64,000 nucleotides of DNA from Amia ocellicauda (taxonomy: Eukaryota; Chordata; Actinopteri; Amiiformes; Amiidae): the NCBI RefSeq assembly GCF_036373705.1, contig NC_089858.1:32714749-32778748 (forward strand). Direction: 5' to 3'. The notes under the pieces were generated by a model that was not told where the DNA came from, made no database searches, and saw nothing but the letters and a program-made list of their open reading frames with translations. Within the stretch, counting starts at the first letter, position 1; each line of letters begins with the position of its first letter. Shown here piece after piece: positions 26,971 to 64,000 of this stretch. Both the position numbers and the translations under genes were made by a program.

Positions 26971-26971
26971 G

Positions 26972-29874: not shown

Positions 29875-29876
<2 letters not shown>

Positions 29877-30290
29877 GCTTTTCTTTCCTCAGTCTTGCCC
29901 AGAGTGCAGAGGTGTGTAGCAATAAAGTCACAGTTGTCTTGACTGAACAGTGTGGGTTATTATTGTTAAGTCCTGATGGCTGTAGCTGATGTTTAAATAA
30001 ATCAATGGAGATAAAATGACAAGACCGACTTAGCTAGAACACACAGAAATGTTGATGCCGCAGCGGAGGAGGGGCGGGACCAGTAGCACAGCGGCCGGCC
30101 GTCCTGTGTCTCTGCGCGCTTCAGCCTTCGCTTCATGCAGAGCAAGAGCCGCAGCGATTTTGTTCCCCAAAACAGCAGATCCCTCGTCCCACGTTCAAGT
30201 TGCCGAGTGGATGGTCGTGCTGGTGAGTTTTATGCCATGGAAATGCAGTGCAATAAATAAGACGTGATCTTTCACAATGTCCAAAAAGAT

Positions 30291-30361
30291 GGAAGCACCT
30301 GGACTCGAACCAGGGACGTAATGAGTTATAGTCACCTGCTCTGCCGCTGAGCTATACTCCC
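30291..30361 (-). tRNA. Cys-tRNA-like gene with AUA anticodon (U1)
   Basis: A 71-nt cloverleaf: acceptor GGGAGTA/TGCTTCC (7 pairs with wobbles), D arm GCTC-AGCGGCA-GAGC, anticodon stem GGTGA/TCATT with loop CTATAAC, five-base variable region, and T arm CCTGG-TTCGAGT-CCAGG. Box A (TAGCTCAGCGG) and box B (GGTTCGAGTCC) are intact, and TTTTT (30283-30287) lies three bases past the 3' end as a Pol III terminator. The body matches vertebrate tRNA-Cys (GGGGGTATAGCTCAG...GTCCCTGGTTCAAATCCAGG) at most positions, but the anticodon position reads ATA where Cys has GCA. It may be a transcribed tRNA, a tRNA pseudogene or a structural RNA; charging identity is unknown. Confidence 0.8.
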
Positions 30362-30543
30362 ACCATGGATGAGTCTGGCTCGTATGGGGCTGATAAAGTT
30401 GTGTGAACGCGTGTGAACTGGTTTCACATGGCTATTGAAATGGGTGGTGACGTGATGCTTCTTGCTTTCCATGACGGCACATTCGGCCTCTATCGTCTTG
30501 TTCTCTGCACATCAGCCCCACAAGGGACGATCCAGGCATTGAG

Positions 30544-30551
30544 TGACGTCA
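30544..30551. promoter_or_regulatory. CRE palindrome TGACGTCA (U1)
   Basis: Consensus CREB/ATF site inside the CpG-rich block. It is repeated at 44193-44200 (U3), 48784-48791 (U4) and 63427-63434 (U6), and absent from U2 and U5, where it fell within the 366 bases lost at the LINE. Confidence 0.55.
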
Positions 30552-30909
30552 GCGCTAAACCAGAACACTCCCAGCAGCCCCTGCGCCAGAGACAGCCCGT
30601 CTCCGTGTCCGGCCCGTGTCTGATGGCGTCTCTAAAGCTGCCGCTGCCGCTTCATGTCCCGGGAACAGCCCTGTGGCTTTTGTAGACGCCAGAGAGGCTG
30701 TGGCTTGTATAGGACTGCTATGCTAGGAGCACCGGTGAGTGGAGTAGCCGCAGCACTCCCGGGGTGCGAGTGAGCGAGTGCTTGTACTTGCTTTTGTGGG
30801 GACAGTTTTATGGCTGCACACCAACAACGTGGGGACAGAAATCGAGGTCCCCACTGTCCCGCCTATTGCAGTGAGTAGCGCAAGTCTCAAAAACATGTGC
30901 GCCATCAAA

Positions 30910-30950
30910 ATGTCAGCTGCCGCCAGCGGTGCCGCTCCGCGGATAAAGCT
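30910..30950 (+). other. Possible first coding exon of an unknown + strand gene
   Basis: An ATG in good context (TCAAAATGT) opens a frame reading MSAAASGAAPRIK and running to a consensus donor GTGAGT at 30951, at the edge of the CpG-rich block. The same ATG occurs at 41271, 44559, 49150, 59525 and 63793, all with the donor. I do not recognise the peptide and found no convincing second exon. A strong acceptor (CTTTTCTTTCCTCAG) and an AATAAA sit at the start of each unit and could end such a transcript. Speculative. Confidence 0.3.
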
Positions 30951-31457
30951 GTGAGTGAAGACTCTGCCCCAGAGGCGCGCATGTGCGCTGCAGCTGTGAC
31001 GCCCTTCGGTCACATGACGGGAAATGCAGGAGGGGAGGTGCAGATCGGTCATTGCTTTTCCAGCTGGAAATACAGTGATTTTTACATACACACACGTTTT
31101 ACCATACACTGATGTACATGATGTAGCCTGTTAGTTGTATGGGTTTTTTTTTTGTCAGTGAAAGAAACGATCTATTTCTGCTGCGTTTAGCCTTTTAATC
31201 AGCTTTTGATGTGCTACGATTTTGCAACGAAAGCTGTCAGTTTGACTGATTTGTTTTTCGAATGTATATTGTCATGCTAGCTATGCATCCGGAAGTATGT
31301 ATGTCTAATTGAAAGTATTTTTAAATGGGTGTGTTTAGAATGTGCAGAATAGTCCATGTGATCGTAGGGAGTGTTGTGTAGATGCAGTGCTCTGCTGTGG
31401 CTTCTTGGCGTAGTTAAGGCAGATACAGGCCTCGTTTATGTCTTACTAATGCAGTTG

Positions 31458-31795
31458 GAACATAAGAAACATAAGAGTTTACAAACGAGAGGAGGCCATT
31501 CGAGCCATCGTGCTCGTTTGGTGATCCAAGGATCCTATCCAGTCTGATTTTAAATGTCCCCAAATGTTCAGCTTGCACCCCATCGCCGGGGAGTTTGTTC
31601 AGACTGTGACGCCCCTCCGTGTGAAGGAGTGTCTCCTGTTTTCCGTCTCGAAAGCCCTGAAGCCCGATTTCCATGTGTGTCCCCGCTGATCTGGAAAAGC
31701 TCCTCTGGTCTGATGTGGTCGGTGCCTTTCATGATTTCCAAGACTTGATTCAAGTCCCCACTGTTCTGCAGTGTGCTGAAACTGAACACGTGTAC
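31458..31795 (-). repeat. CR1-like LINE 3' fragment (U1)
   Basis: The minus strand reads LQNSGDLNQVLEIMKGTDHI, then RPEELFQISGDT and, after shifts, LGTFKIRLDRILGS, matching the end of the LINE at 26972-28516. It ends in the family 3' terminus (TTTGTAAACTCTTATGTTTC on the minus strand). A 5'-truncated insertion fixed before the array expanded. Confidence 0.85.
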
Positions 31796-32439
31796 TGTAG
31801 CAAGTACATTCACTTCTCATTTTCACACTCATTTGGGCTCAGCTGTACCTTTTGATATTGATGTACCATTTCCGTCTGCTTTCATACCCGTGTACAGTAA
31901 ATGGACGAAGGATGACTTGCTTACACGTAGCGATGCATCTTGAATTCAAACTGCAGTGCCCTGTGACTGGCGTGTATTATTTTCAGTAGTATTGTAGCGC
32001 TCGGAGGGTCTTCCAATAGATAAGCCCAAGTCATATTTCAGGGTGCAACAGTGCGCCCTTTCCATTGTTTATGTAATGCCGCGCTGCTCGTATTCGGGTT
32101 TTTCCTGGCTCAGAATGGGCCCTTGGGGGGTGACTACACACGACAGTAGGCATGATCGGTCCACGTACAGTAAAGGCAGTGAGTTACCTTATGACAGAAA
32201 TCGATGCGTTTTCTTGTTATTTCTGACCGTTGGATAAACACAAATGTCTGTCATGCTTGAATAAATGAATCCCCATTAACAAAACTGGTTGAAACCAAAA
32301 AAGAATTGTATTACAACACTGGAAGGTGGGCAGGGGAGGGAGTTTGAGGGAGAGGGGTGTGGGGTTGGGAGAGGGGAGGCTGTCAGTTGCAGAGGTCACA
32401 TCCTGCTTCAGAGCATTTCACTGTCCTCTTTGTATTAAA

Positions 32440-33613
32440 TCAACTCAATGAAAAGGATCTGACAAGGCCACGGTAGTCTATCTCGTCAGCCTCCGGTCCG
32501 ACAGTGGCCACCCTGCAGCACACGTCGAGGTGGTCATTCTTGAGCCGGTTCCTCAATGGCGTTTTCACCTGTTGAGAATTGAATGGAGAATGCAGTGATT
32601 GTGCCGTCGGCATATAATATGAACAATCCTGGAACGTTCTGGGGTGGGGCATATACTGTATATTGCAGATTACACATCATGTTAACTTTATTTTTCCAGC
32701 TTGAGGGCAGAGAACAACCGCTCAACGTCTGCGGTCTGGACGGGGGCGGTGAGGGCAACGGCTGCTGCCAGGCTGAGGCGGGGATAAGTGACTGAGGCCT
32801 CCGGAGACACCAGCCAGAGGAGAACCTCCTCCGGTGATTTAGACTGCAAGCAAAGAAAAACGATGGAATAATGTCATTTGAGTATGAAGACTTATTTCCA
32901 TGTTGAATGGTAGTTATGAAACGTACTGCAAATTGTCACTGACCCTTAGGTCTGGGCTCTTGACCCTGTCCGTGAGTACGTCCCACTCTTGGAGTAGGAC
33001 AGACTCCTCCAGTCTGGGGCTCTGCTTAGCCAGAGCCCGCATCTCCTTCAGACCAAAGTTTGGAGCGGGGTTTGCCAGCAGTTTACTCACTGTGAAAACA
33101 CCAACGTTTTGCAGGGCACTGGTGCCGGGGTAGCGGTTATCGATGTTTTCCACAAGCATAGAGAGGAATGGTTCCATCGCCTAGAATGAAAATAAATCAT
33201 GTCAAATTCATGGATTATAAATATTATATATAGAGAGAGTATATACACTGTATAGTACTTGTAATAGGAGTGCTGTATCCCTGCTAGATAGCACTTCTCA
33301 GTTTTATCATGCTTCTTGTGTTTTCGATTTTGTTTTCCTGCTTGCTCCCTTTCCCGTAGCCCTTGACTGTGACCCTACATCTTGACAGCACTTAGCTTTC
33401 ACCGTCCAGGATGTAGGGCCTCACTTACTGTACTTGCTTGTTTCAATTATAAATTGGAATTTGTCAAATGTATTTTGAATTGCTATGTTTCGTTTAATTG
33501 AATTTGTAATGATTGATGCCTTTTACTTAACTGTATTTTTTTTGCACTTTGTTTTACACTTATGTTGTAAGTCGCCCTGGATAAGGGCATCTGCCAATAA
33601 AAATAATAATAAC

Positions 33614-33650
<37 letters not shown>

Positions 33651-34295
33651 GTAATAATAATATATCTATACTGTATATATCTCATACCGTTTTCCGGAAC
33701 CTCTCCCAGATGCCCTCTTTTAAGTGGGCAGGAATTTCTTCCTGGAGTGCCTTCAGCCCGGTGTCGGAGGTCAGTCAGGACTTCCACCTGTCCCTAACTT
33801 GGGTCTTCTCCTTAAATAGGACCAAGGATGCCTTCAGTGCTGTCACCTATAATACATACTTACAACACAATCATGTCACAGATGGCGGAGTCATCCTTCC
33901 ATTGTTATAGACGTATACCGTTTTAGACTTTTATTGTCGACAACTACATACATACCTCCTGATCCACTTGAGAGAAGATAGGGGCTCTTGTTTGGAAGAT
34001 CTGGAACTGCCTGTGCAGCTTCTCGTGCAGCACCTTAAAAGTCAGTTCATAGTAGAAAAGTACAGTAACGGTGTAGAAATAGAAAGTACAAATGCTATGA
34101 AGAAAAGTCACTGTCTTACCTGCATCAGACACAGGGCCGGGGGGGAAAGAACTCATTTGTGGCAAAGTTGAAGGGCCCATGAGCAGTGGGCTCCTTCCTG
34201 GCCTGCAGAGACAGGTCTGCCGACAGAGCTGGGAGGATCCGGCGGACAACATCTGTCGCCTCCTTGCTGCTCTCCCACCTTGTCTGATTGCCTCC
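32440..34295 (-). pseudogene. hAT-transposase-related multi-exon gene, C-terminal half (U1)
   Basis: Six exon-like blocks on the minus strand: 34120-34295 (GGNQTRWESSKEATDVVRRI), 33956-34033 (VLHEKLHRQFQIFQTRAPIF), 33688-33831, 32944-33180 (EPFLSMLVENIDNRYPG), 32700-32843 (PVQTADVERLFSALK) and 32440-32568 (VKTPLRNRLKNDHLDVCCRV, stop TGA). Every block keeps phase 0 at both ends, and most have consensus signals (CAG|GTAAGA, GAG|GTATGT, ACG|GTATGA). The last two form the hAT C-terminal dimerisation domain (ERLFS..K..R..L). It resembles intron-bearing hAT-derived host proteins such as ZNF862/KIAA1586-like ones. Defects: a frameshift in the C7 run of the first block, TGA in the third block, and CT instead of GT after 32700. 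Upstream exons not found. Confidence 0.75.
33500..33664 (+). repeat. L2-like tail with stem-loop and (AAT)n (U1)
   Basis: TTGTAAGTCGCCCTGGATAA continues to GGGCATCTGCCAATAAAA and a (TAA)n run. GCCCT/AGGGC at 33574-33588 forms the short hairpin that L2-clade reverse transcriptases recognise. It lies in the intron between two hAT-related exons. The left limit is approximate. Confidence 0.75.
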
Positions 34296-34870
34296 CTGAA
34301 AAGCAAAGGTAACACTTTGCAATCAAAGTCGCTTGGTTATGTAATAAAGATATGTATCGCACATTATGGCAGTTAATCGAACCTGCAGTTTTAATTGTTG
34401 GAGATTGAACACTTTTTCCATCCTGCCTGTCATTACCAATATATATATATATATATGCTTTTCTTTCCTCAGTCTTGCCCAGAGTGCAGAGGTGTGTAGC
34501 AATAAAGTCACAGTTGTCTTGACTGAACAGTGTGGGTTATTATTGTTATGTCCTGATGGCTGTAGCTGATGTTTAAATAAATCAATGGAGATAAAATGAC
34601 AAGACCGACTTAGCTAGAACACACAGAAATGTTGATGCCGCAGCGGAGGAGGGGCGGGACCAGTAGCACAGCGGCCGGCCGTCCTGTGTCTCTGCGCGCT
34701 TCAGCCTTCGCTTCATGCAGAGCAAGAGCCGCAGCGATTTTGTTCCCCAAAACAGCAGATCCCTCGTCCCACGTTCAAGTTGCCGAGTGGATGGTCGTGC
34801 TGGTGAGTTTTATGCCATGGAAATGCAGTGCAATAAATAAGACGTGATCTTTCACAATGTCCAAAAAGAT

Positions 34871-34941
34871 GGAAGCACCTGGACTCGAACCAGGGACGTA
34901 ATGATTTATAGTCACCTGCTCTGCCGCCGAGCTATACTCCC
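34871..34941 (-). tRNA. Cys-tRNA-like gene with AUA anticodon (U2)
   Basis: Same cloverleaf and terminator as the U1 copy. D loop reads GGCGGCA and anticodon loop CTATAAA. The D-loop base is shared with U5 only. Confidence 0.8.
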
Positions 34942-35618
34942 ACCATGGATGAGAGTCCGGCTCGTATGGGGCTGATAAAGTTGTGTGAACGCGTGTGAAC
35001 TGGTTTCACATGGCTATTGAAATGGGTGGTGACGTGATGCTTCTTGCTTTCCATGACGGCACATTCGGCCTCTATCGTCCAATAGTGAGAGAAACCTTTG
35101 TCCAGCAGGGGGCTTTTAGAGCTGTATTTGACAGTCTTTCTTTTTTCCTTGCAGGGAGCTGATCCATCAGGCCAGACCAGACGAGACGGGGAGGTGCCGG
35201 TTGACAGAGCTGCAGAGTCCTGGGTCCTTGGAGCGGTCCGGAGGCCGAGGCGAGTGGAGATTGGGACGGACCGGGAGCGACAGGGGACCTAGCCAGAGGA
35301 GTCGGAGGACTCCTCACGGAGTGGTTCCCATCCAGAAGCCCGGCCGACCATCTACCCGGAGCCCGGCCTGACCAGGACTGCTCCCCGCTGACGTCACCAG
35401 CCAGGATCCAGGAGAGGCCTCGGATTCCAGGGACCGAACAGGCCGATCGGCAACGTCCCTGAGGGAGGCCTCCTGCAGCCAGGGCCCGGACTTCTCCCCG
35501 CCAGGCCCGCTCCCTGCAAGAGCCCCGGAGGTGGAAGCTGCTCCCCAGCCAGGTGGACTTGCCCCGACCTCCGGATTGAGAGCCTCCCGACCCTTCTCCC
35601 AGGTAGGAAAAGCGCAGC

Positions 35619-37256
35619 ATGGCCCAGCGAACCGCCGGTGTGAGGCGCCATAATGCGGTGCGCTTCAGCCGTGAGGCTGGAGCCGAGACCGCGGCCCTCA
35701 CCCGGCTGGAGTTCAGCAGGTCCGTGCTGCAGAGGGGCCTGGGCTTTGCCCCTTCTGAGCTGAACTGTGTGGTAAAACTGCCTGGACCTAGGGACGTGTT
35801 CGAGGTGAGCTTTAAGAACCCTCAAGTGCTGGAGAGTTTTTGGAACCTGTATAGGGAAAAAAAAGACAGCATGCCCCTGAATGACTTTGTGGTCGATGCC
35901 CTGACAGATAGAGAAATTAAAATTGTAACAATTCAGTTTTACAACGAAGCAGTGGCAGAGTACGACGTAGAAGTATGGCTGAGGAGACACTGTGAGATCC
36001 TGTCTGAAAGCAGGAGAGTTAATGATGAGGATGGGGTCTGGACCGGTGCTCGGCGGTGGCAGGTGCGCCTGCAGGTGGAAGTGGCCGCCATCGGCGGAGT
36101 ACGCCATCTACCAAGCACCGTGGTTTTAGGAGCAAATAGGGGGCTTGTCTTCTATCATGGCATGCCCAAATTATGTAGAAACTGCGGGGCCCTGGGTCAT
36201 TTAGCCGCAGCCTGTACTGTTGTTAAGTGCAAGGTCTGCGGCGGAGAACATCAGACCAGGGCCTGCAAGCAGGAGAGGGCCTGCAACCTGTGCGGTGGGG
36301 GAGGGCATCTCTTTAGGAATTGTCCCTCCTCCTATGCAAACAGGGCGCGGGCCCTCGGGGGTGGTGGAGAGAGAGAAAATCAAGCGGAGGCTCCTCCAAA
36401 GGTGATACCCCAAGATGGGGGTAGAGAGGAAACAATCCTCAGGAGCCTCATAGGTTCCCTCTCTGACTCTGGGTCAGAAGTGGAGGCAGAGGGAGAGTGG
36501 ACAGTGGTAGCGGGGAAGAGAAGGAGGGCAGAGAAGAGGAGCATGGGTAGGGGGGGTATGATGAAAAAAAGGGTCCATTCTGCAGATTCTCCCCCCCCTG
36601 CCGGCTCCTCCCCCGCTCCAGAGTCCCCTCCCTCTAATTTCTATACGCCCCACTCTGACTCCGGAGAGGAGAGTGGTGGGCCTTCTCCACTGCCCCGAGT
36701 GGGCAGCCTGGTAGATGAGAGGCCCCCTAGAAATAACATTCCTCCTGCCCCACAACTGAGACTCTCCCAGGGGAGGGGTCAGGTATGCCCTCCCGGCAGT
36801 AGTGGGAGAGCCGCAGGTCCTCAGGAGATGAGAGTCGGCGCCAGTGTCCTTTCCCAGAAAGACATCAGGGACGTGATGGCAAGGTCACTGGCGCTGGGGG
36901 AGGAGGCCTGCGGCGGCAGACAGCCGGGAAGGGAGAGACCACCCCCTCCCCCACCATTAGTTAAAAGAACAACTAGCGGGGTCTACACAGTTTTCTCCCC
37001 AGTTGTACATAAAGCCTCTGCCCTGCCATCTGTTCGTCGGGCCTCGGCCTCAAAGGAACCAGGGAGAACCTCCAGCACCACGGGCCCTGAGCCCAGTGGA
37101 GTTTTGCCAGCCTTACCGGGTGGCGGGAGCCGAGCCCCCCCCATAGTCTTCCTAGAGGATCAAGCGGTGAGGCAAATGATTGAAATGATGGGTGCTAGCG
37201 CTAAGCTAGGTGAGGGAGAAGAGAGGAGTGGGGAAGAGAAAGGTTTCTTTACATGA
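35619..37256 (+). CDS. LINE ORF1 protein with three CCHC zinc knuckles (copy A)
   Basis: 545 codons starting MAQRTAGVRRHNAVRFSREA. The ATG at 35619 follows the GC-rich leader, and AGCATGG gives a fair start context. Residues about 186-235 hold three zinc knuckles: CRNCGALGHLAAAC, the variant CKVCGGEHQTRAC and CNLCGGGGHLFRNC. The second half is Pro/Ser/Gly-rich and probably disordered. Fish copies of such ORF1s are often annotated as zinc finger CCHC domain-containing protein 3-like. The product is expected to be an RNA-binding protein that packages LINE RNA. It ends with TGA at 37254-37256; ORF2 follows immediately in the same frame. Undamaged and identical in amino acid sequence, as far as I compared, to the copy at 53873. 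Confidence 0.9.
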   Translation: MAQRTAGVRRHNAVRFSREAGAETAALTRLEFSRSVLQRGLGFAPSELNCVVKLPGPRDVFEVSFKNPQVLESFWNLYREKKDSMPLNDFVVDALTDREIKIVTIQFYNEAVAEYDVEVWLRRHCEILSESRRVNDEDGVWTGARRWQVRLQVEVAAIGGVRHLPSTVVLGANRGLVFYHGMPKLCRNCGALGHLAAACTVVKCKVCGGEHQTRACKQERACNLCGGGGHLFRNCPSSYANRARALGGGGERENQAEAPPKVIPQDGGREETILRSLIGSLSDSGSEVEAEGEWTVVAGKRRRAEKRSMGRGGMMKKRVHSADSPPPAGSSPAPESPPSNFYTPHSDSGEESGGPSPLPRVGSLVDERPPRNNIPPAPQLRLSQGRGQVCPPGSSGRAAGPQEMRVGASVLSQKDIRDVMARSLALGEEACGGRQPGRERPPPPPPLVKRTTSGVYTVFSPVVHKASALPSVRRASASKEPGRTSSTTGPEPSGVLPALPGGGSRAPPIVFLEDQAVRQMIEMMGASAKLGEGEERSGEEKGFFT

Positions 37257-37289
37257 TTGTTACGGAGCGGGTATGCCCTCACAGCCATT

Positions 37290-40200
37290 ATGGCATTAAC
37301 CATTATTTCAATAAATGTGAGGAGCATTGCTGAGGTGAAAAAGAGGACCGATGTTTTAAACTCTCTGGCTGGAATGAAGGCGGATATTATCTGTTTGCAG
37401 GAGTGCGGCATCCCGTTCCAAAAAGAATATAAAGATCTCCGGGACACTTGGACCCTAGGAGAATCCTTCTGGTCGAGGTCCAATGTGTCCCGAGCGGACG
37501 GGATTGCCGTACTCCTGAAAAACCCCTTCTTAACAGTTAAAACATTTAAGGTTATAGAGGCGGGCAGACTGGCCAGCCTCGATTTTAAATACAAGGGGGC
37601 TGTATTGAGGCTGGTCAATGTCTATGCCCCCACCAGCCAGAGAGAGAGAGTCCTCTTTCTCCCTCAGCTACGCCCGCTCCTGATCGGCACCTTGCCAGTT
37701 ATCATTTCAGGTGATTTCAACTGTGCTCTGAGGGATGTAGACCGGAGTAAGCCCCGCAACGATAGATCCAGCAGGGACCTCGCTGCGTTCGTGGAGGACT
37801 TTGAACTCTGCAACGCAGGTCGGGACCTGGTCCCCTTGTTCACCTGGGTGAGTTCTTCTGGCTCCTCCTTCTCCAGGATAGATCTCGTCCTCCTCAGCAA
37901 GCCACTGGAGAGGACCGCCATGTCTTCGGAGGCGGTCTTCTTTTCAGACCACAGGCTCCTGACGACAGAGGTGCTCATTCCGAGCACACGGGAGTCGGGG
38001 CCTGGGGTCTGGAAGCTCAACACCTCTCTGCTCGATGACCCTCGTGTGATTAAGACCTTTAGCAGACGCCTCGAGGAGTGGAGGACCCTGAAGGACCTTT
38101 TTGATTCTCCCATAGAGTGGTGGGAGATGATGAAGAAAAGAACCAAGGGCTACTTCATTCAGCTGGGGAAACGGAAAGCTCGCGAGAGGCGGGCGAGATA
38201 TTCCCATCTAAACGCCCACCTCCAGCGCCTGAGTCTTTTACAGCTCAGAGGCTTCGACCTAGCTGAGGAGGTGGCCCGGGTCAAACTGAGTCTCTCCGCC
38301 CTCTATCGGGAGGAGCAAGAAAAGATCAAGGTCCTTTCCAGGGTCCGCATCATGGAGGACGATGAGAAATGCAGCCGCTTCTTCTTCAAGAAAACGAAGG
38401 AGAGGCGGCCTGCAATGTCCTCCATGATCGACTCCTCGGGGCAAGAGGTGGAGGGCAGAGAGGCTGTTGAGACAGTGGTGCGGGATTTCTACAGGGAGTT
38501 GTACTACCAGAAGGTGGTGGATCAAAATCTGATCCATCACTTTCTGTCCCTGTTGGAGTCCCGCAATGAGGGGGACGAGGAGGAGGAGGAGGATCCAGAG
38601 ATCACCACCACTGAACTCTCCCAGGTGATAAAGAGTCTTAACTCTGGAAGGACACCGGGTCCCGACGGGATCCCTGCTGAGTTCTATAAGATCTTTTGGG
38701 AGGTGCTTAAGGAAGATCTGGGCCAGGTCCTGGGGTCGATGTACAGAGAGGGCAGATTGGCCCCTTCGATGAAGAAGAGTATCCTCTCCCTTCTTCACAA
38801 GAAGGGAGACCCGAAAGATCTGAGGAACTGGCGGCCAGTCAGCCTCCTGTGCACCGACTACAAGATACTGGCCAAAGCACTGACGCTCCGGCTGCAGCGG
38901 CCACTCCCTCAAGTCGTGGGTCCCGACCAGGTCTGTGGTGCCCGGGGGAGATCGGCGGCCGACAACGCCATGCTGCTCAGGGATGTCGTGGCCTACTCGA
39001 ACGAGAGAGGGCTTCCCCTGGTCCTAATCAGCTTGGACCAGGAGAAAGCCTTCGACAGAGTGGGCCACGAATACCTGCAGCTTGTTATGGAGAGGATGGG
39101 TCTCGCTCTTGGCCTGAGGAAGTGGGTCAAGATCATCTACAGCGGCCTAAGCAGCAGGGTCCTTGTGAACCGCCACCTGACCGAACCATTTCCGGTCAGG
39201 TCGGGGGTCCGGCAGGGTTGTCCCCTGTCGGCCCTGCTGTACGTCCTCTGCTTGGAGCCGTTCATGCAGGCGATCCGCCGGGACGTCCGGGTGACAGGTT
39301 TCCATCTCCCGGGTTCCGGCGGAGAGCAACTGAAGGCCCTGGCCTATATGGACGACGTGGCCGTGGTCTGCACGGACGCTCCGTCCGTGGCCAGGGTCGA
39401 GGAACTGCTGGACGGCTTCTGCAGGGCGACGGGGGCCGCTGTGAACAAGGCCAAGAGCGAGGTCTACCTCTCCAGGGCATGGCCTGTCGGCCGGGGCCCG
39501 CCGACCGTGTTCCCTGTGAAGCCGTTTATCAAGGTTCTGGGGATCACGATCGACGGGACCAACACGGGCACCCGGAGCTGGGAGGAGGCCATAGCAAAGG
39601 TCCAAAGGAAGATCCACGGCTGGAGCACAAGGACCTTGACGATGGCCGGTAAGGTGCTGGTCGTAAAGGCCATCCTCTTCCCGATACTCCTCTACGTAGG
39701 AATGATCTTCCCCCCAGACAAGGTTATCGCAAAACTAGTGACCCGAATTATATTTCGGTTTGTCTGGGGGAGCAAAATGGAGAGGCTGAAAAGAGTGCAG
39801 ATGGTGAAGGGTACCCTGGATGGAGGCAGGGGGGTCCCGGACGTTGTGCGGCTGATAAAGGCGCAGGGGCTGGCCTATGTGGTCAAGAACATCCAGGCTG
39901 CTGGCAAGAACGTGAGTTTCATGAACCGCTTTTATTTTGCCAGCAGCCTGAGACCATTCGGCCTCTGCGCCATGGATAACACCAGGCCGCACTCGTGGGA
40001 TCCCCCGCCGTTCTACAGGGCGCTCCGAGCCTTTGCGCTCGAAGTAGGCCTCCATAAAGTCGTGCTGGCCTCCTGGGATTATAAGACCATCTGTAGTCAG
40101 ATGAGATCTACCCAGGAGACCAGCCGGATAGAAGATTTCCCTCCCGAAACCTGCCGGTTTATCTGGGCTAACGCTACGCACGTTTGCCTCACGAACACGC

Positions 40201-40685: not shown

Positions 40686-41224
40686 TGGGACCCACCTCCG
40701 GGGACGGTTAGTTCCCCCTGCTGGAGCCCGAGTCCAAGATCTTTTAAAGATTTTACGGATGACTGTTTTAAAAAGATTTTAAAAAACGAATCTTAATTGT
40801 TTTTAAAGATTTAGTTGTTTTTAATTCACATTGTTCAGGTTTTTTTTTTTAATAGTTTTGTTATATTTTGTTGTCAAATACATTGACCGTTTTGGGTTTA
40901 ATTTAAAATGCATTGGACTTTTTTTGTTTGTTTTTTATTTTTTCCTTTTTAATTGTTTTTTTAATTTGTTCAATGCATTTTCAGTTATTTTCAATGTATT
41001 TGACTCTTTTGTTGGTGTGCAATTTTTTGCTTTTATCACGTTTTGTTTATTTGATTTGAGCACGTTTATTTTAAAGTTAATTGTTTTAGTTAAAATCACA
41101 AAGATTTTAAAATTTTTTAAGTGATTTTAATGATTGATATTTTAAATGATTTTAATCATAAGTATTAAAATTGGAATTGTTTTATTTTAAGAAATGTAAA
41201 ATACTCAACCTAATAAACAGTATT
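40686..41224 (+). other. T-rich 3' UTR of LINE copy A
   Basis: After GGACCCACCTCCGGGGACGG the composition switches abruptly to T-rich with recurring AAAGATTTTA, AAGATTTTAAA and GTGATTTTAATGATT. It ends CCTAATAAACAGTATTTA. The counterpart in copy B is 58940-59478. The long open frame at 40831-41124 is a product of low complexity. Confidence 0.8.
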
Positions 41225-52709: not shown

Positions 52710-53124
52710 TGCTTTTCTTTCCTCAGTCTTGCCCAGAGTGCAGAGGTGTGTAGCAATAAAGTCACAGTTGTCTTGACTGAACAGTGTGGGTTATTATTGT
52801 TATGTCCTGATGGCTGTAGCTGATGTTTAAATAAATCAATGGAGATAAAATGACAAGACCGACTTAGCTAGAACACACAGAAATGTTGATGCCGCAGCGG
52901 AGGAGGGGCGGGACCAGTAGCACAGCGGCCGGCCGTCCTGTGTCTCTGCGCGCTTCAGCCTTCGCTTCATGCAGAGCAAGAGCCGCAGCGATTTTGTTCC
53001 CCAAAACAGCAGATCCCTCGTCCCACGTTCAAGTTGCCGAGTGGATGGTCGTGCTGGTGAGTTTTATGCCATGGAAATGCAGTGCAATAAATAAGACGTG
53101 ATCTTTCACAATGTCCAAAAAGAT

Positions 53125-53195
53125 GGAAGCACCTGGACTCGAACCAGGGACGTAATGATTTATAGTCACCTGCTCTGCCGCCGAGCTATACTCCC
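53125..53195 (-). tRNA. Cys-tRNA-like gene with AUA anticodon (U5)
   Basis: Identical to the U2 copy, including the GGCGGCA D loop. It lies about 140 bp from the LINE 5' junction. Confidence 0.8.
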
Positions 53196-53872
53196 ACCAT
53201 GGATGAGAGTCTGGCTCGTATGGGGCTGATAAAGTTGTGTGAACGCGTGTGAACTGGTTTCACATGGCTATTGAAATGGGTGGTGACGTGATGCTTCTTG
53301 CTTTCCATGACGGCACATTCGGCCTCTATCGTCCAATAGTGAGAGAAACCTTTGTCCAGCAGGGGGCTTTTAGAGCTGTATTTGACAGTCTTTCTTTTTT
53401 CCTTGCAGGGAGCTGATCCATCAGGCCAGACCAGACGAGACGGGGAGGTGCCGGTTGACAGAGCTGCAGAGTCCTGGGTCCTTGGAGCGGTCCGGAGGCC
53501 GAGGCGAGTGGAGATTGGGACGGACCGGGAGCGACAGGGGACCTAGCCAGAGGAGTCGGAGGACTCCTCACGGAGTGGTTCCCATCCAGAAGCCCGGCCG
53601 ACCATCTACCCGGAGCCCGGCCTGACCAGGACTGCTCCCCGCTGACGTCACCAGCCAGGATCCAGGAGAGGCCTCGGATTCCAGGGACCGAACAGGCCGA
53701 TCGGCAACGTCCCTGAGGGAGGCCTCCTGCAGCCAGGGCCCGGACTTCTCCCCGCAAGGCCCGCTCCCTGCAAGAGCCCCGGAGGTGGAAGCTGCTCCCC
53801 AGCCAGGTGGACTTGCCCCGACCTCCGGATTGAGAGCCTCCCGACCCTTCTCCCAGGTAGGAAAAGCGCAGC

Positions 53873-55510: not shown

Positions 55511-55543
55511 TTGTTACGGAGCGGGTATGCCCTCACAGCCATT

Positions 55544-58500
55544 ATGGCATTAACCATTATTTCAATAAATGTGAGGAGCATTGCTGAGGTGAAAAAGAGG
55601 ACCGATGTTTTAAACTCTCTGGCTGGAATGAAGGCGGATATTATCTGTTTGCAGGAGTGCGGCATCCCGTTCCAAAAAGAATATAAAGATCTCCGGGACA
55701 CTTGGACCCTAGGAGAATCCTTCTGGTCGAGGTCCAATGTGTCCCGAGCGGACGGGATTGCCGTACTCCTGAAAAACCCCTTTTTAACAGTTAAAACATT
55801 TAAGGTTATAGAGGCGGGCAGACTGGCCAGCCTCGATTTTAAATACAAGGGGGCTGTATTGAGGCTGGTCAATGTCTATGCCCCCACCAGCCAGAGAGAG
55901 AGAGTCCTCTTTCTCCCTCAGCTACGCCCGCTCCTGATCGGCACCTTGCCAGTTATCATTTCAGGTGATTTCAACTGTGCTCTGAGGGATGTAGACCGGA
56001 GTAAGCCCCGCAACGATAGATCCAGCAGGGACCTCGCTGCGTTCGTGGAGGACTTTGAACTCTGCGACGCAGGTCGGGACCTGGTCCCCTTGTTCACCTG
56101 GGTGAGTTCTTCTGGCTCCTCCTTCTCCAGGATAGATCTCGTCCTCCTCAGCAAGCCACTGGAGAGGACCGCCATGTCTTCGGAGGCGGTCTTCTTTTCA
56201 GACCACAGGCTCCTGACGACAGAGGTGCTCATTCCGAGCACACGGGAGTCGGGGCCTGGGGTCTGGAAGCTCAACACCTCTCTGCTCGATGACCCTCGTG
56301 TGATTAAGACCTTTAGCAGACGCCTCGAGGAGTGGAGGACCCTGAAGGACCTTTTTGATTCTCCCATAGAGTGGTGGGAGATGATGAAGAAAAGAACCAA
56401 GGGCTACTTCATTCAGCTGGGGAAACGGAAAGCTCGCGAGAGGCGGGCGAGATATTCCCATCTAAACGCCCGCCTCCAGCGCCTGAGTCTTTTACAGCTC
56501 AGAGGCTTCGACCTAGCTGAGGAGGTGGCCCGGGTCAAACTGAGTCTCTCCACCCTCTATCGGGAGGAGCAAGAAAAGATCAAGGTCCTTTCCAGGGTCC
56601 GCATCATGGAGGACGATGAGAAATGCAGCCGCTTCTTCTTCAAGAAAACGAAGGAGAGGCGGCCTGCAATGTCCTCCATGATCGACTCCTCGGGGCAAGA
56701 GGTGGAGGGCAGAGAGGCTGTTGAGACAGTGGTGCGGGATTTCTACAGGGAGTTGTACGACCAGAAGGTGGTGGATCAAAATCTGATCCATCACTTTCTG
56801 TCCCTGTTGGAGTCCCGCAATGAGGGGGACGAGGAGGAGGAGGAGGATCCAGAGATCACCACCACTGAACTCTCCCAGGTGATAAAGAGTCTTAACTCTG
56901 GAAGGACACCGGGTCCCGACGGGATCCCTGCTGAGTTCTATAAGATCTTTTGGGAGGTGCTTAAGGAAGATCTGGGCCAGGTCCTGGGGTCGATGTACAG
57001 AGAGGGCAGATTGGCCCCTTCGATGAAGAAGAGTATCCTCTCCCTTCTTCACAAGAAGGGAGACCCGAAAGATCTGAGGAACTGGCGGCCAGTCAGCCTC
57101 CTGTGCACCGACTACAAGATACTGGCCAAAGCACTGACGCTCCGGCTGCAGCGGCCACTCCCTCAAGTCGTGGGTCCCGACCAGGTCTGTGGTGCCCGGG
57201 GGAGATCGGCGGCCGACAATGCCATGCTGCTCAGGGATGTCGTGGCCTACTCGAACGAGAGAGGGCTTCCCCTGGTCCTAATCAGCTTGGACCAGGAGAA
57301 AGCCTTCGACAGAGTGGGCCACGAATACCTGCAGCTTGTTATGGAGAGGATGGGTCTCGCTCTTGGCCTGAGGAAGTGGGTCAAGATCATCTACAGCGGC
57401 CTAAGCAGCAGGGTCCTTGTGAACCGCCACCTGACCGAACCATTTCCGGTCAGGTCGGGGGTCCGGCAGGGTTGTCCCCTGTCGGCCCTGCTGTACGTCC
57501 TCTGCTTGGAGCCGTTCATGCAGGCGATCCGCCGGGACGTCCGGGTGACAGGTTTCCATCTCCCGGGTTCCGGCGGAGAGCAACTGAAGGCCCTGGCCTA
57601 TATGGACGACGTGGCCGTGGTCTGCACGGACGCTCCGTCCGTGGCCAGGGTCGAGGAACTGCTGGACGGCTTCTGCAGGGCGACGGGGGCCGCTGTGAAC
57701 AAGGCCAAGAGCGAGGTCTACCTCTCCAGGGCATGGCCTGTCGGCCGGGGCCCGCCGACCGTGTTCCCTGTGAAGCCGTTTATCAAGGTTCTGGGGATCA
57801 CGATCGACGGGACCAACACGGGCACCCGGAGCTGGGAGGAGGCCATAGCAAAGGTCCAAAGGAAGATCCACGGCTGGAGCACAAGGACCTTGACGATGGC
57901 CGGTAAGGTGCTGGTCGTAAAGGCCATCCTCTTCCCGATACTCCTCTACGTAGGAATGATCTTCCCCCCAGACAAGGTTATCGCAAAACTAGTGACCCGA
58001 ATTATATTTCGGTTTGTCTGGGGGAGCAAAATGGAGAGGCTGAAAAGAGTGCAGATGGTGAAGGGTACCCTGGATGGAGGCAGGGGGGTCCCGGACGTTG
58101 TGCGGCTGATAAAGGCGCAGGGGCTGGCCTATGTGGTCAAGAACATCCAGGCTGCTGGCAAGAAAGTGAGTTTCATGAACCGCTTTTATTTTGCCAGCAG
58201 CCTGAGACCATTCGGCCTCTGCGCCATGGATAACACCAGGCCGCACTCGTGGGATCCCCCGCCGTTCTACAGGGCGCTCCGAGCCTTTGCGCTCGAAGTA
58301 GGCCTCCATAAAGTCGTGCTGGCCTCCTGGGATTATAAGACCATCTGTAGTCAGATGAGATCTACCCAGGAGACCAGCCGGATAGAAGATTTCCCTCCCG
58401 AAACCTGCCGGTTTATCTGGGCTAACGCTACGCACGTTTGCCTCACGAACACGCAGAAAGATGTCTCCTGGATGGCTGTGAGTCGGTGTCTCCCCACCCG

Positions 58501-58939
58501 AGTGTTCATGCACAGAAGGGGCATAGCTCCTTATGACACCTGCCCCTATAAGGGTTGCCTGGGGAAGGAGACGGAGGCTCACATCTTTAGTGAGTGCCCC
58601 TCCGCCCACAGGGTCTGGCTCCTGTTTTCTCCGTTCCTCCACAGGTTCGCCGTTCCTGCGCGGGCGACCGCCCAGCAGATCCTATACGGTCCAGCCAAGG
58701 GAATCTCTTCATCTACCTTGAGGTGCTGGTGGCTTGTCGTCTGCGCAGTGAAGCAGGCACTGTGGGAGGGACGGAACATCTGTTTGTTCAATAAGCAGGA
58801 GCTGGACCCGATCGTCATCGCGCGGAGGGGCATGGTGTTTGTAAGAGACTATGTCAATCTGGAGGTCCATCAGAGGGGCAAGGAGGAAGCCTACAAGAAC
58901 TGGCGCATACAAGATCTGGGGGAGCTCAGGATCCCATGA
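55544..58939 (+). CDS. LINE ORF2: APE endonuclease and reverse transcriptase (copy B)
   Basis: 1,131 codons, all endonuclease and RT motifs as in copy A, YMDD intact. Differences from copy A: Asp for Asn in FELCDAGRD, Arg for His in LNARLQ, Thr for Ala in LSTLYRE, Asp for Tyr in ELYDQK and Lys for Asn in GKKVSF. With no stop or shift in either copy, both could in principle be translated. Confidence 0.93.
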   Translation: MALTIISINVRSIAEVKKRTDVLNSLAGMKADIICLQECGIPFQKEYKDLRDTWTLGESFWSRSNVSRADGIAVLLKNPFLTVKTFKVIEAGRLASLDFKYKGAVLRLVNVYAPTSQRERVLFLPQLRPLLIGTLPVIISGDFNCALRDVDRSKPRNDRSSRDLAAFVEDFELCDAGRDLVPLFTWVSSSGSSFSRIDLVLLSKPLERTAMSSEAVFFSDHRLLTTEVLIPSTRESGPGVWKLNTSLLDDPRVIKTFSRRLEEWRTLKDLFDSPIEWWEMMKKRTKGYFIQLGKRKARERRARYSHLNARLQRLSLLQLRGFDLAEEVARVKLSLSTLYREEQEKIKVLSRVRIMEDDEKCSRFFFKKTKERRPAMSSMIDSSGQEVEGREAVETVVRDFYRELYDQKVVDQNLIHHFLSLLESRNEGDEEEEEDPEITTTELSQVIKSLNSGRTPGPDGIPAEFYKIFWEVLKEDLGQVLGSMYREGRLAPSMKKSILSLLHKKGDPKDLRNWRPVSLLCTDYKILAKALTLRLQRPLPQVVGPDQVCGARGRSAADNAMLLRDVVAYSNERGLPLVLISLDQEKAFDRVGHEYLQLVMERMGLALGLRKWVKIIYSGLSSRVLVNRHLTEPFPVRSGVRQGCPLSALLYVLCLEPFMQAIRRDVRVTGFHLPGSGGEQLKALAYMDDVAVVCTDAPSVARVEELLDGFCRATGAAVNKAKSEVYLSRAWPVGRGPPTVFPVKPFIKVLGITIDGTNTGTRSWEEAIAKVQRKIHGWSTRTLTMAGKVLVVKAILFPILLYVGMIFPPDKVIAKLVTRIIFRFVWGSKMERLKRVQMVKGTLDGGRGVPDVVRLIKAQGLAYVVKNIQAAGKKVSFMNRFYFASSLRPFGLCAMDNTRPHSWDPPPFYRALRAFALEVGLHKVVLASWDYKTICSQMRSTQETSRIEDFPPETCRFIWANATHVCLTNTQKDVSWMAVSRCLPTRVFMHRRGIAPYDTCPYKGCLGKETEAHIFSECPSAHRVWLLFSPFLHRFAVPARATAQQILYGPAKGISSSTLRCWWLVVCAVKQALWEGRNICLFNKQELDPIVIARRGMVFVRDYVNLEVHQRGKEEAYKNWRIQDLGELRIP

Positions 58940-60072
58940 TGGGACCCACCTCCGGGGACGGTTAGTTCCCCCTGCTGGAGCCCGAGTCCAAGATCTTTTA
59001 AAGATTTTACGGATGACTGTTTTAAAAAGATTTTAAAAAACGAATCTTAATTGTTTTTAAAGATTTAGTTGTTTTTAATTCACATTGTTCAGGTTTTTTT
59101 TTTAAATAGTTTTGTTATATTTTGTTGTCAAATACATTGACCGTTTTGGGTTTAATTTAAAATGCATTGGACTTTTTTTGTTTGTTTTTTATTTTTTCCT
59201 TTTTAATTGTTTTTTTAATTTGTTCAATGCATTTTCAGTTATTTTCAATGTATTTGACTCTTTTGTTGGTGTGCAATTTTTTGCTTTTATCACGTTTTGT
59301 TTATTTGATTTGAGCACGTTTATTTTAAAGTTAATTGTTTTAGTTAAAATCACAAAGATTTTAAAAAATTTTAAGTGATTTTAATGATTGATATTTTAAA
59401 TGATTTTAATCATAAGTATTAAAATTGGAATTGTTTTATTTTAAGAAATGTAAAATACTCAACCTAATAAACAGTATTTATTGCAGTGAGTAGCGCAAGT
59501 CTCAAAAACATGTGCGCCATCAAAATGTCAGCTGCCGCCAGCGGTGCCGCTCCGCGGATAAAGCTGTGAGTGAAGACTCTGCCCCAGAGGCGCGCATGTG
59601 CGCTGCAGCTGTGACGCCCTTCGGTCACATGACGGGAAATGCAGGAGGGGAGGTGCAGATCGGTCATTGCTTTTCCAGCTGGAAATACAGTGATTTTTAC
59701 ATACACACACGTTTTACCACACACTGATGTACATGATGTAGCCTGTTAGTTGTATGTTTTTTTTTTTTGTCAGTGAAAGAAACGATCTATTTCTGCTGCG
59801 TTTAGCCTTTTAATCAGCATTTGATGTGCTACGATTTTGCAACGAAAGCTGTCAGTTTGACTGATTTGTTTTTCGAATGTATATTGTCATGCTAGCTATG
59901 CATCCGGAAGTATGTATGTCTAATTGAAAGTATTTTTAAATCGGTGTGTTTAGAATGTGCAGAATAGTCCATGTGATCGTAGGGAGTGTTGTGTAGATGC
60001 AGTGCTCTGCTGTGGCTTCTTGGCGTAGTTAAGGCAGATACAGGCCTCGTTTATTTCTTACTAATGCAGTTG

Positions 60073-60410
60073 GAACATAAGAAACATAAGAGTTTACAAA
60101 CGAGAGGAGGCCATTCGAGCCATCGTGCTCGTTTGGTGATCCAAGGATCCTATCCAGTCTGATTTTAAATGTCCCCAAATGTTCAGCTTGCACCCCATCG
60201 CCGGGGAGTTTGTTCAGACTGTGACGCCCCTCCGTGTGAAGGAGTGTCTCCTGTTTTCCGTCTCGAAAGCCCTGAAGCCCGATTTCCATGTGTGTCCCCG
60301 CTGATCTGGAAAAGCTCCTCTGGTCTGATGTGGTCGGTGCCTTTCATGATTTCCAAGACTTGATTCAAGTCCCCACTGTTCTGCAGTGTGCTGAAACTGA
60401 ACACGTGTAC
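60073..60410 (-). repeat. CR1-like LINE 3' fragment (U5)
   Basis: Same fragment as in U1, at the same position of the unit. Confidence 0.85.
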
Positions 60411-61054
60411 TGTAGCAAGTACATTCACTTCTCATTTTCACACTCATTTGGGCTCAGCTGTACCTTTTGATATTGATGTACCATTTCCGTCTGCTTTCAT
60501 ACCCGTGTACAGTAAATGGACGAAGGATGACTTGCTTACACGTAGCGATGCATCTTGAATTCAAACTGCAGTGCCCTGTGACTGGCGTGTATCATTTTCA
60601 GTAGTATTGTAGCGCTCGGAGGGTCTTCCAATAGATAAGCCCAAGTCATATTTCAGGGTGCAACAGTGCGCCCTTTCCATTGTTTATGTAATGCCGCGCT
60701 GCTCGTATTCGGGTTTTTCCTGGCTCAGAATGGGCCCTTGGGGGGTGACTACACACGACAGTAGGCATGATCGGTCCACGTACAGTAAAGGCAGTGAGTT
60801 ACCTTATGACAGAAATCTATGCGTTTTCTTGTTATTTCTGACCGTTGGATAAACACAAATGTCTGTCATGCTTGAATAAATGAATCCCCATTAACAAAAC
60901 TGGTTGAAACCAAAAAAGAATTGTATTACAACACTGGAAGGTGGGCAGGGGAGGGAGTTTGAGGGAGAGGGGTGTGGGGTTGGGAGAGGGGAGGCTGTCA
61001 GTTGCAGAGGTCACATCCTGCTTCAGAGCATTTCACTGTCCTCTTTGTATTAAA

Positions 61055-62596
61055 TCAACTCAATGAAAAGGATCTGACAAGGCCACGGTAGTCTATCTCG
61101 TCAGCCTCCGGTCCGACAGTGGCCACCCTGCAGCACACGTCGAGGTGGTCATAATGTCATTTGAGTATGAAGACTTATTTCCATGTTGAATGGTAGTTAT
61201 GAAACGTACTGCAAATTGTCACTGACCCTTAGGTCTGGGCTCTTGACCCTGTCCGTGAGTACGTCCCACTCTTGGAGTAGGACAGACTCCTCCAGTCTGG
61301 GGCTCTGCTTAGCCAGAGCCCGCATCTCCTTCAGACCAAAGTTTGGAGCGGGGTTTGCCAGCAGTTTACTCACTGTGAAAACACCAACGTTTTGCAGGGC
61401 ACTGGTGCCGGGGTAGCGGTTATCGATGTTTTCCACAAGCATAGAGAGGAATGGTTCCATCGCCTAGAATGAAAATAAATCATGTCAAATTCATGGATTA
61501 TAAATATTATATATAGAGAGAGTATATACACTGTATAGTACATGTAATAGGAGTGCTGTATCCCTGCTAGATAGCACTTCTCAGTTTTATCATGCTTCTT
61601 GTGTTTTCGATTTTGTTTTCCTCCTTGCTCCCTTTCCCGTAGCCCTTGACTGTGACCCTACATCTTGACAGCACTTAGCTTTTACCGTCCAGGATGTAGG
61701 GCCTCACTTACTGTACTTGCTTGTTTCAATTATAAATTGGAATTTGTCAAATGTATTTTGAATTGCTATGTTTCGTTTAATTGAATTTGTAATGATTGAT
61801 GCCTTTTACTTAACTGTATTTTTTTTGCACTTTGTTTTACACTTATGTTGTAAGTCGCCCTGGATAAGGGCATCTGCCAAAAAAAAAAATAATAACAATA
61901 ATAATAATTATAATAATAATAATAATAATTATAATAATAATAATAATAATAGTAATAATAATATATCTATACTGTATATATCTCATACCGTTTTCCAGAA
62001 CCTCTCCCAGATGCCCTCTTTTAAGTGGGCAGGAATTTCTTCCTGGAGTGCCTTCAGCCCGGTGTCGGAGGTCAGCCAGGACTTCCACCTGTCCCTAACT
62101 TGGGTCTTCTCCTTAAATAGGACCAAGGATGCCTTCAGTGCTGTCACCTATAATACATACTTACAACACAATCATGTCACAGATGGCGGAGTCATCCTTC
62201 CATTGTTATAGACGTATACCGTTTTAGACTTTTATTGTCGACAACTACATACATACCTCCTGATCCACTTGAGAGAAGATAGGGGCTCTTGTTTGGAAGA
62301 TCTGGAACTGCCTGTGCAGCTTCTCGTGCAGCACCTTAAAAGTCAGTTCATAGTAGAAAAGTACAGTAACGGTGTAGAAATAGAAAGTACAAATGCTATG
62401 AAGAAAAGTCACTGTCTTACCTGCATCAGACACAGGGCCGGGGGGGAAAGAACTAATTTGTGGCAAAGTTGAAGGGCCCATGAGCAGTGGGCTCCTTCCT
62501 GGCCTGCAGAGACAGGTCTGCCGACAGAGCTGGGAGGATCCGGCGGACAACATCTGTCGCCTCCTTGCTGCTCTCCCACCTTGTCTGATTGCCTCC
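61055..62596 (-). pseudogene. hAT-related gene (U5), lacking the penultimate exon
   Basis: Blocks 62421-62596, 62257-62334, 61989-62132 and 61227-61463 are present. The penultimate exon and the start of the last are removed by the 332-bp deletion (last exon remnant 61055-61152). The third block reads WKSWLTSD here, with TGG where the other units have TGA. Confidence 0.75.
61775..61963 (+). repeat. L2-like tail with interrupted (AAT)n (U5)
   Basis: Same insertion. The run is interrupted by TTATAAT blocks and preceded by an A9-10 stretch not seen in the other units. Confidence 0.75.
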
Positions 62597-62755
62597 CTGA
62601 AAAGCAAAGGTAACACTTTGCAATCAAAGTCGCTTGGTTATGTAATAAAGATATGTATCGCACATTATGGCAGTTAATCGAACCTGCAGTTTTAATTGTT
62701 GGAGATTGAACACTTTTTCCATCCTGCCTGTCATTACCAATATATATATATTTAT

Positions 62756-64000
62756 ATGCTTTTCTTTCCTCAGTCTTGCCCAGAGTGCAGAGGTGTGTAG
62801 CAATAAAGTCACAGTTGTCTTGACTGAACAGTGTGGGTTATTATTGTTAAGTCCTGATGGCTGTAGCTGATGTTTAAATAAATCAATGGAGATAAAATGA
62901 CAAGACCGACTTAGCTAGAACACACAGAAATGTTGATGCCGCAGCGGAGGAGGGGCGGGACCAGTAGCACAGCGGCCGGCCGTCCTGTGTCTCTGCGCGC
63001 TTCAGCCTTCGCTTCATGCAGAGCAAGAGCCGCAGCGATTTTGTTCCCCAAAACAGCAGATCCCTCGTCCCACGTTCAAGTTGCCGAGTGGATGGTCGTG
63101 CTGGTGAGTTTTATGCCATGGAAATGCAGTGCAATAAATAAGACGTGATCTTTCACAATGTCCAAAAAGATGGAAGCACCTGGACTCGAACCAGGGACGT
63201 AATGATTTATAGTCACCTGCTCTGCCGCTGAGCTATACTCCCACCATGGATGAGAGTCCAGCTCGTATGGGGCTGATAAAGTTGTGTGAACGCGTGTGAA
63301 CTGGTTTCACATGGCTATTGAAATGGGTGGTGACGTGATGCTTCTTGCTTTCCATGACGGCACATTCGGCCTCTATCGTCTTGTTCTCTGCACATCAGCC
63401 CCACAAGGGACGATCCAGGCATTGAGTGACGTCAGCGCTAAACCAGAACACTCCCAGCAGCCCCTGCGCCAGAGACAGCCCGTCTCCGTGTCCGGCCCGT
63501 GTCTGATGGCGTCTCTAAAGCTGCCGCTGCCGCTTCATGTCCCGGGAACAGCCCTGTGGCTTTTGTAGACGCCAGAGAGGCTGTGGCTTGTATACGACTG
63601 CTATGCTAGGAGCACCGGTGAGTGGAGTAGCCGCAGCACTCCCGGGGTGCGAGTGAGCGAGTGCTTGTACTTGCTTTTGTGGGGACAGTTTTATGGCTGC
63701 ACACCAACAACGTGGGGACAGAAATCGAGGTCCCCACTGTCCCGCCTATTGCAGTGAGTAGCGCAAGTCTCAAAAACATGTGCGCCATCAAAATGTCAGC
63801 TGCCGCCAGCGGTGCCGCTCCGCGGATAAAGCTGTGAGTGAAGACTCTGCCCCAGAGGCGCGCATGTGCGCTGCAGCTGTGACGCCCTTCGGTCACATGA
63901 CGGGAAATGCAGGAGGGGAGGTGCAGATCGGTCATTGCTTTTCCAGCTGGAAATACAGTGATTTTTACATACACACACGTTTTACCACACACTGATGTAC
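62756..64000 (+). repeat. Tandem array unit U6, cut by window end
   Basis: First 1,245 bp of a further unit, up to just after the possible first exon. It carries no LINE at the insertion point (LINE-free sequence through 63380-63745) and pairs with U3 by shared variants. Confidence 0.95.
63172..63242 (-). tRNA. Cys-tRNA-like gene with AUA anticodon (U6)
   Basis: Identical to the U3 and U4 copies, with the T5 terminator. Confidence 0.8.

Follow-up and report, generated by a model that had tools for sequence, protein, structure and literature searches.

What orders a tandem array of kilobase-sized units? The question is raised by a 64,000-nucleotide stretch of the Amia ocellicauda genome (contig NC_089858.1 of assembly GCF_036373705.1, here C9:32714749-32778748; hereafter "the window"), much of which consists of near-identical head-to-tail units, each with a tRNA-like gene. 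A reading made from the letters of the window alone (the sequence-only reading) had proposed a three-unit higher-order structure with an 18,254-bp period, amplified in blocks of three, probably by unequal exchange. Following the array beyond the window in its genome (988 Mb in 385 contigs were searched) leads to a different answer: this is very probably a small tRNA-bearing macrosatellite that was entered once by a long interspersed nuclear element (LINE) and was then shuffled by unequal exchange or gene conversion in variable register. The apparent three-unit period of 18,254 bp is the distance between two copies of that LINE, and there is no higher-order unit.

Self-comparison and BLAST place the start of the array at approximately 29839, from where it continues to the end of the window, taking in five full units and the opening 1261 bp of a sixth:

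29839..34438, no strand assigned: unit 1 (BLAST and alignment)
34439..43505, no strand assigned: unit 2, with LINE and 1.3-kb deletion (BLAST and alignment)
43506..48078, no strand assigned: unit 3 (BLAST and alignment)
48079..52680, no strand assigned: unit 4 (BLAST and alignment)
52681..62739, no strand assigned: unit 5, with LINE and a deletion of 0.33 kb distinct from that of unit 2 (BLAST and alignment)
62740..64000, no strand assigned: unit 6, truncated by the end of the window, the array continuing (genome comparison)

In the assembly the array runs on for another 28.3 kb, to C9:32807061, and comprises ten complete units plus part of an eleventh, approximately 62.5 kb in all. Successive units, from the first to the eleventh, are spaced by 4580, 9067, 4593, 4594, 10047, 4619, 9067, 4580, 4582 and 4582 bp. 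The near-identity of the five full units and partial sixth is borne out: without the LINE the window units are 99.30-99.84% identical in alignments of 15 pairs, and pairwise differences among the 11 units (one of them partial) range from 0.04 to 0.70%. A unit length of about 4.6 kb, also proposed from the letters, is right for units 1, 3 and 4 (4.57-4.60 kb) and wrong for units 2 (9067 bp) and 5 (10,059 bp), each of which holds a 6145-bp LINE and a deletion of its own. No description of this array was found among the papers listed, and neither the repeat nor the tRNA sequence led to any paper.

(A technical note: the LINE was cut out of units 2, 5 and 7 before the units were aligned, and its copies were compared separately; unit 6 contributes only 1261 bp to the alignments of window units and to the pairing test described below, and unit 11 only 2144 bp to the 11-unit distances; the TA tract at the start of the unit was excluded, as 35 columns for the site counts in the window and as 40 columns for the 11-unit distances.)

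The LINE provides the most telling marks. In units 2 and 5 the same element, with two open reading frames (ORFs), replaces an identical 366 bp of the unit, and the junctions are identical:

35080..41224, plus strand: full-length LINE of L1/Tx1 type in unit 2 (Pfam, PDB match, junctions, ends common to the genome copies)
53334..59478, plus strand: LINE, the same insertion, in unit 5 (12 differences from the copy in unit 2)
35607..37253, plus strand: LINE ORF1, 549 codons, two ZCCHC3-type RNA-binding domains and a CCHC zinc knuckle (Pfam)
37257..40682, plus strand: LINE ORF2, 1142 codons, endonuclease, reverse transcriptase and zf-RVT (Pfam)

The domains that define the L1/Tx1 group are present, that is, an apurinic/apyrimidinic-like endonuclease and a reverse transcriptase in ORF2 and a CCHC motif in ORF1; the top PDB matches of ORF2 are LINE-1 ORF2 proteins (E 1.7e-75). 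The combination of zf-RVT with a ZCCHC3-type ORF1 we take to be suggestive, at most, of the Tx1 clade. One further unit of the 11, unit 7, carries the element at the same junctions, and both reading frames are open in all three copies (between units 2 and 5 the ORFs differ by five nonsynonymous and three synonymous changes, numbers too small to speak for or against selection).

Why should three-unit order have suggested itself at all? The distance of 18,254 bp is indeed the commonest self-match distance in the window (6744 shared 24-mers), and units 1 and 2 taken together match units 4 and 5 at 99.56% over 13 kb. This striking match arises in large part because units 2 and 5 both contain the LINE. 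The interval does not recur: from the LINE of unit 5 to that of unit 7 it is 14,666 bp. The three-unit order ends just past the window: the LINE occupies units 2, 5 and 7 rather than every third unit. Nor is unit 5 the closest relative of unit 2. Per 6145 bp, the LINE copies of units 2 and 7 differ at 5 positions, those of units 5 and 7 at 11 and those of units 2 and 5 at 12, and the junction of the 1.3-kb deletion is identical in units 2 and 7, while the 0.33-kb deletion of unit 5 is another one. Units 2 and 5 had been expected to be sisters, as had units 3 and 6; the sister of unit 2 is in fact unit 7, which indicates a different history, and units 3 and 6 are mutually closest in their first 1.3 kb (2/1260 differences).

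The other marks that had been read as pairing unit 1 with 4, 2 with 5 and 3 with 6 recur in the array without a period: the 2-bp GATGAGTCTGG deletion is found in units 1, 4, 8 and 11, the marks pairing unit 2 with unit 5 in units 2, 5 and 7, and the short TA boundary in 6 of the 11 units (3, 6, 8, 9, 10 and 11). If units n and n+3 were most alike, the mean difference should fall at an offset of three. It does not: at offsets of one to five units the means are 0.413, 0.426, 0.427, 0.459 and 0.377% (eight pairs at offset 3), all values for offsets 1-9 lie between 0.33 and 0.46%, and the lowest means are those at offset 8 (0.334%, three pairs) and offset 10 (0.235%, one pair). Closest partners shift along the unit instead, units 9 and 10 lying one apart, 3 and 6 as well as 2 and 5 three apart, 4 and 8 four apart, and 1 and 6 as well as 2 and 7 five apart. 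In the four-gamete test 235 of 528 pairs of informative sites are incompatible with a single tree of the 11 units; among the window units alone 56 of 105 pairs fail. Mosaic variants and shifting partners of this kind are the expected trace of exchange or conversion in variable register.

As a general rule, then, a three-unit higher-order structure is rejected, by comparison of 15 pairings within the window and by the offsets from 1 to 10 over the array. A true higher-order repeat amplified in 18.25-kb blocks is very improbable; the array beyond the window refutes it as a general structure, and at most a single local event of the kind may have occurred. The idea that amplification went three units at a time falls with it as a rule, and unequal exchange, which the sequence-only reading had proposed as the means of spreading, fits the data.

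Shuffling in variable register has its own difficulties, and several points weigh against it: 1) Over the whole unit the pairing of 1 with 4, 2 with 5 and 3 with 6 ranks first of 15, narrowly (17/30 versus 16/30, 15 informative sites). It is again first of 15 over the initial 1.3 kb, agreeing in 10 of 12 comparisons at 4 informative sites; in the rest of the unit, with 11 informative sites, it drops to eighth of 15 (7 of 18 comparisons). 2) One earlier exchange that carried a three-unit block from units 1-3 to units 4-6, among several events, may have taken place. 3) The LINE copies of units 2 and 5 differ at 12 of 6145 positions and units 1 and 4 at 19 of 4599 (Fisher p 0.045), a gap that one block copy does not predict and that may be due to chance. 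4) Exchange and conversion are indistinguishable with these data. 5) The copy number of 11 comes from one assembly and not from reads.

The last of these points invites another question: is the array itself real? Two haplotypes, or looped paths of an assembly graph, joined end to end could in principle generate near-identical neighbors. The differences between units, mostly 0.2-0.7%, lie in a range that heterozygosity could produce, and units 9 and 10 differ by 0.04%. The copies are nonetheless structurally distinct (the 1.3- and 0.33-kb deletions, the LINE in 3 of 11 units, microsatellites of different lengths), all ten boundaries between units are in register, and the 114 kb examined are free of N. 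Adjacent units, moreover, are as different from each other as distant ones, a pattern that duplicating the haplotypes of a short array would not easily produce. An artefact of this kind is quite unlikely.

The preferred account, of a macrosatellite with one LINE entry and later shuffling, can be put as a sequence of events, whose mechanism (exchange or conversion) and order we infer from the shared junctions, deletions and mosaic variants. Unequal crossing-over or gene conversion, in a register that varies, would expand the array and keep it homogeneous; an L1/Tx1-type LINE of full length would have inserted once, taking the place of 366 bp in one unit; copying inside the array would then have brought the LINE-bearing unit to positions 2, 5 and 7; and the resulting copies would have acquired different deletions. 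The three LINE copies at one site accordingly serve as markers of exchange between units. There is also a caution in them: a lone transposon insertion in a tandem array can mimic a higher-order repeat when just two copies of it are visible.

Did the LINE choose its site? It sits 137 bp upstream of the tRNA-like gene, within a tandem array, and its protein is of the L1/Tx1 type, some Tx1-clade elements being directed to repeated RNA genes. A preference for tRNA-bearing or multicopy units is scarcely credible all the same. The array records a single insertion event. Elsewhere in the genome the element is dispersed over many contigs, with at least 37 matches to its 5' part (98-99% identity) and at least 37 matches outside the array to its 3' part (95-99% identity). 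Among seven such copies sampled, one (L031) had no end readable by the pattern used; the six others (L032-L037) have five different 3' flanks, L033 and L034 sharing one, so that five independent sites show no common target when compared by eye. Target specificity is left unsupported by this small sample. The dispersed copies do settle the extent of the element: 36 of the 37 5' matches listed start at the equivalent of window positions 35078-35082, and the array copies are therefore full length.

A CTCF-core-like word lies at the LINE's 5' end (35102 and 53356). These are the sole matches in the window to that core pattern; a second CTCF-like pattern matches only within LINE ORF2, and no profile search was made.

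Is the array kept for its tRNA-like gene? This is the one part of the unit that merits a check at the bench: ARAGORN finds it in 11 of 11 units, on the minus strand, with a full cloverleaf and a changed anticodon, AUA, and Rfam finds it in all six window units:

30288..30362, minus strand: tRNA-like gene of unit 1 (ARAGORN, Rfam; AUA anticodon, TTTTT run after)
34868..34942, minus strand: tRNA-like gene of unit 2 (ARAGORN, Rfam)
43935..44009, minus strand: tRNA-like gene of unit 3 (ARAGORN, Rfam)
48528..48602, minus strand: tRNA-like gene of unit 4 (ARAGORN, Rfam)
53122..53196, minus strand: tRNA-like gene of unit 5 (ARAGORN, Rfam)
63169..63243, minus strand: tRNA-like gene of unit 6 (ARAGORN, Rfam)

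A TTTTT run starts three bases past the acceptor arm in all six units of the window, and the gene contains box A- and box B-like words. A SINE (short interspersed nuclear element) origin is not favoured, given the TTTTT run directly after the gene. Although the anticodon would read tyrosine codons, and cloverleaf and terminator are in place, the body is not that of tRNA-Tyr: against reference sequences it is closest to tRNA-Cys, with 56/72 matches, as compared with 48/73 for tRNA-Tyr and 47-50 matches for five other isotypes. (The tRNA-Cys reference itself is found, 72/72, at four places in the genome, inside a tRNA-Cys cluster on contig C27.)

The genome search yielded three relatives of the gene outside the array. 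The closest, at C20:28530682 (L027:1503-1577), is 91% identical, lies in a CpG-rich setting and has the anticodon UUA, which would read a stop codon; it is only weakly Cys-like (Cys 53/72, Ala 51/72, Ile 51/76). Between it and the array gene four stem pairs differ, of which three are still paired (one of them by a two-sided change) and one is broken. The two other relatives are 73-74% identical and decayed, and ARAGORN calls no tRNA in them. Loci L027, L068 and L069 share a flank beyond the TTTTT run (by eye), so a low-copy dispersed element is possible.

These facts bear on the proposal that the array is kept for an RNA made in quantity by RNA polymerase III, which would be either a tRNA with a Cys body that reads UAU or an RNA with no decoding role. 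The cloverleaf in every unit, the adjoining TTTTT run, the box A- and box B-like words and the CpG-rich surroundings speak for it. On the other side, Tyr-ATA is, in the available part of PMC8450103, an unexpected anticodon that tRNAscan-SE flags as unusual and probably not functional; the outside relatives have a UUA anticodon or no callable tRNA; and the gene is no less variable than the remainder of the unit, 2 of its 75 positions differing between the six units of the window, as against 46 biallelic sites over approximately 4.6 kb. We judge retention of the array for this RNA unlikely. Somewhat less likely still is a fuller version, in which a polymerase III gene derived from tRNA-Cys would have lost its Cys anticodon (to AUA here and to UUA in the C20 copy) and been amplified in a CpG-rich, possibly unmethylated domain, giving an RNA that misreads codons or decodes none.

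The tRNA-Cys cluster mentioned above is an object in its own right. It is a large tRNA-Cys(GCA) cluster at C27:4241634-4550512 (loci L038-L067 in part), with at least 39 matches within 0.31 Mb, 39 of the 40 matches listed, and the spacing of its members is often approximately 1.57, 2.48 or 3.15 kb.

What else does the unit contain? Shown for unit 4, it holds the following:

48279..49378, no strand assigned: CpG-rich block with words like the cAMP response element (CRE) and the NRF1 and Sp1 sites (CpG observed/expected ratio; motif patterns)
50931..52564, minus strand: decayed multi-exon gene derived from a hAT transposase (exon limits by eye)
51794..51845, plus strand: SINE/LINE tail of the UnaL2 type, then an (AAT)n microsatellite (Rfam, TRF)

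The CpG observed/expected ratio is 0.74 in the first 1.3 kb of unit 4 and 0.65 over all of it, as against a mean of 0.32 in the left flank (28 one-kb windows); CRE-, NRF1- and ETS-like words (by pattern) are found in the unit and not in the left flank. On possible germline hypomethylation the signs are mixed: 15 of the 46 biallelic sites fall in CpG, only 7 of these 15 are transitions, and CpG is also more frequent in the right flank than in the left. A diverged copy of the CpG part, 76-81% identical, in forward and reverse pieces and without the tRNA-like gene, lies at C19:26913112-26914968 (L014). The hAT-derived gene is recognized by Pfam from a Dimer_Tnp_hAT match (E 1.4e-7) at 50931-51113; of the five stretches of the unit searched, this alone matched a family; in the analyst-chosen frame one of its exons has an in-frame stop in units 1, 3 and 4, the three examined. 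Relatives of another of its exons, 78-80% identical, lie in opposite orientation 60 kb apart at C349:506360-506617 and 566016-566273, and are perhaps the parent genes. The UnaL2 tail scores 42.4 bits in Rfam, under the gathering score of 55.

The left border of the array is a (TA)n tract entered by a Tc1-like element, with (TA)n bordering both ends of the element:

28587..29831, minus strand: Tc1-like transposon inside the (TA)n tract that borders the array on its left (Pfam HTH_Tnp_Tc3_2 and DDE_3)

At the right edge the array halts partway through unit 11, and the next kilobase is rich in CpG (observed/expected 0.96). CpG is less depleted on this side than on the left: of the 21 one-kb windows of the right flank, all but this first one lie between 0.16 and 0.64. 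Approximately 17.6 kb past the right end there is an ORF resembling AMP-binding enzymes (27.0 bits versus a cut-off of 29.9), in one of four minus-strand frames tried. Within the window the Tc1-like element is one of three copies (9913-11147, 11623-12858 and 28587-29831) that are approximately 97-99% identical, and the first contains an open frame of 354 codons at 9921-10985. The left part of the window also holds a 177-codon frame on the minus strand at 7594-8127, in a CpG-richer patch, that scores 26.5 bits for a Spin-doc zinc finger (cut-off 27.3), and, at 26871-27482, part of a further reverse transcriptase (RVT_1, E 9.9e-18).

How unusual is all this? The LINE has company: fish have Tx1 elements, including four that are GC-rich (so far as the part of PMC7140322 available goes), and the array LINE resembles fish LINEs of the L1/Tx1 group, as these appear in the accessible parts of PMC7140322, PMC4640811 and PMC9004415, in an ORF2 made of endonuclease and reverse transcriptase, the grouping being by domains and not by a tree. 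It differs from the target-specific Tx1 elements in having no common target among the five flanks compared by eye. The array, for its part, resembles DXZ4 and other mammalian macrosatellites in its tandem CpG-rich units (approximately 3-6 kb in theirs, with uneven lengths in mouse, according to portions of PMC8662614 and PMC3218863). It differs from them in its tRNA-like gene, the available portion of PMC8662614 mentioning no tRNA gene for them, and function on the X chromosome is theirs.

The closest counterpart is the human tRNA variable number tandem repeat at 1q23.3. As set out in the available part of PMC4041453, its 7.3-kb units are 98% identical and GC-rich, with five tRNA genes in each, and also contain a partial LINE, a long terminal repeat fragment and simple repeats; CTCF binds there. 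The sequence-only reading held that units as complex as those in Amia, with a tRNA-like gene, a CpG-rich part and a decayed gene, are not a usual satellite. All three components were found, and the uncommonness was overstated, tRNA-bearing macrosatellites being known from that same part of PMC4041453. There are differences of detail from the human array: the Amia unit has a single tRNA-like gene, with an unusual anticodon, where the human one has five tRNA genes; CTCF-core words in the window are confined to the LINE; the unit contains a decayed hAT gene; and a LINE of full length is carried by 3 of the 11 units. What the two share is near-identical kilobase-scale tandem units with a tRNA gene in each (in Amia a tRNA-like gene, in 11 of 11), and with these the Amia array belongs to an already known kind, the tRNA-bearing complex macrosatellite.

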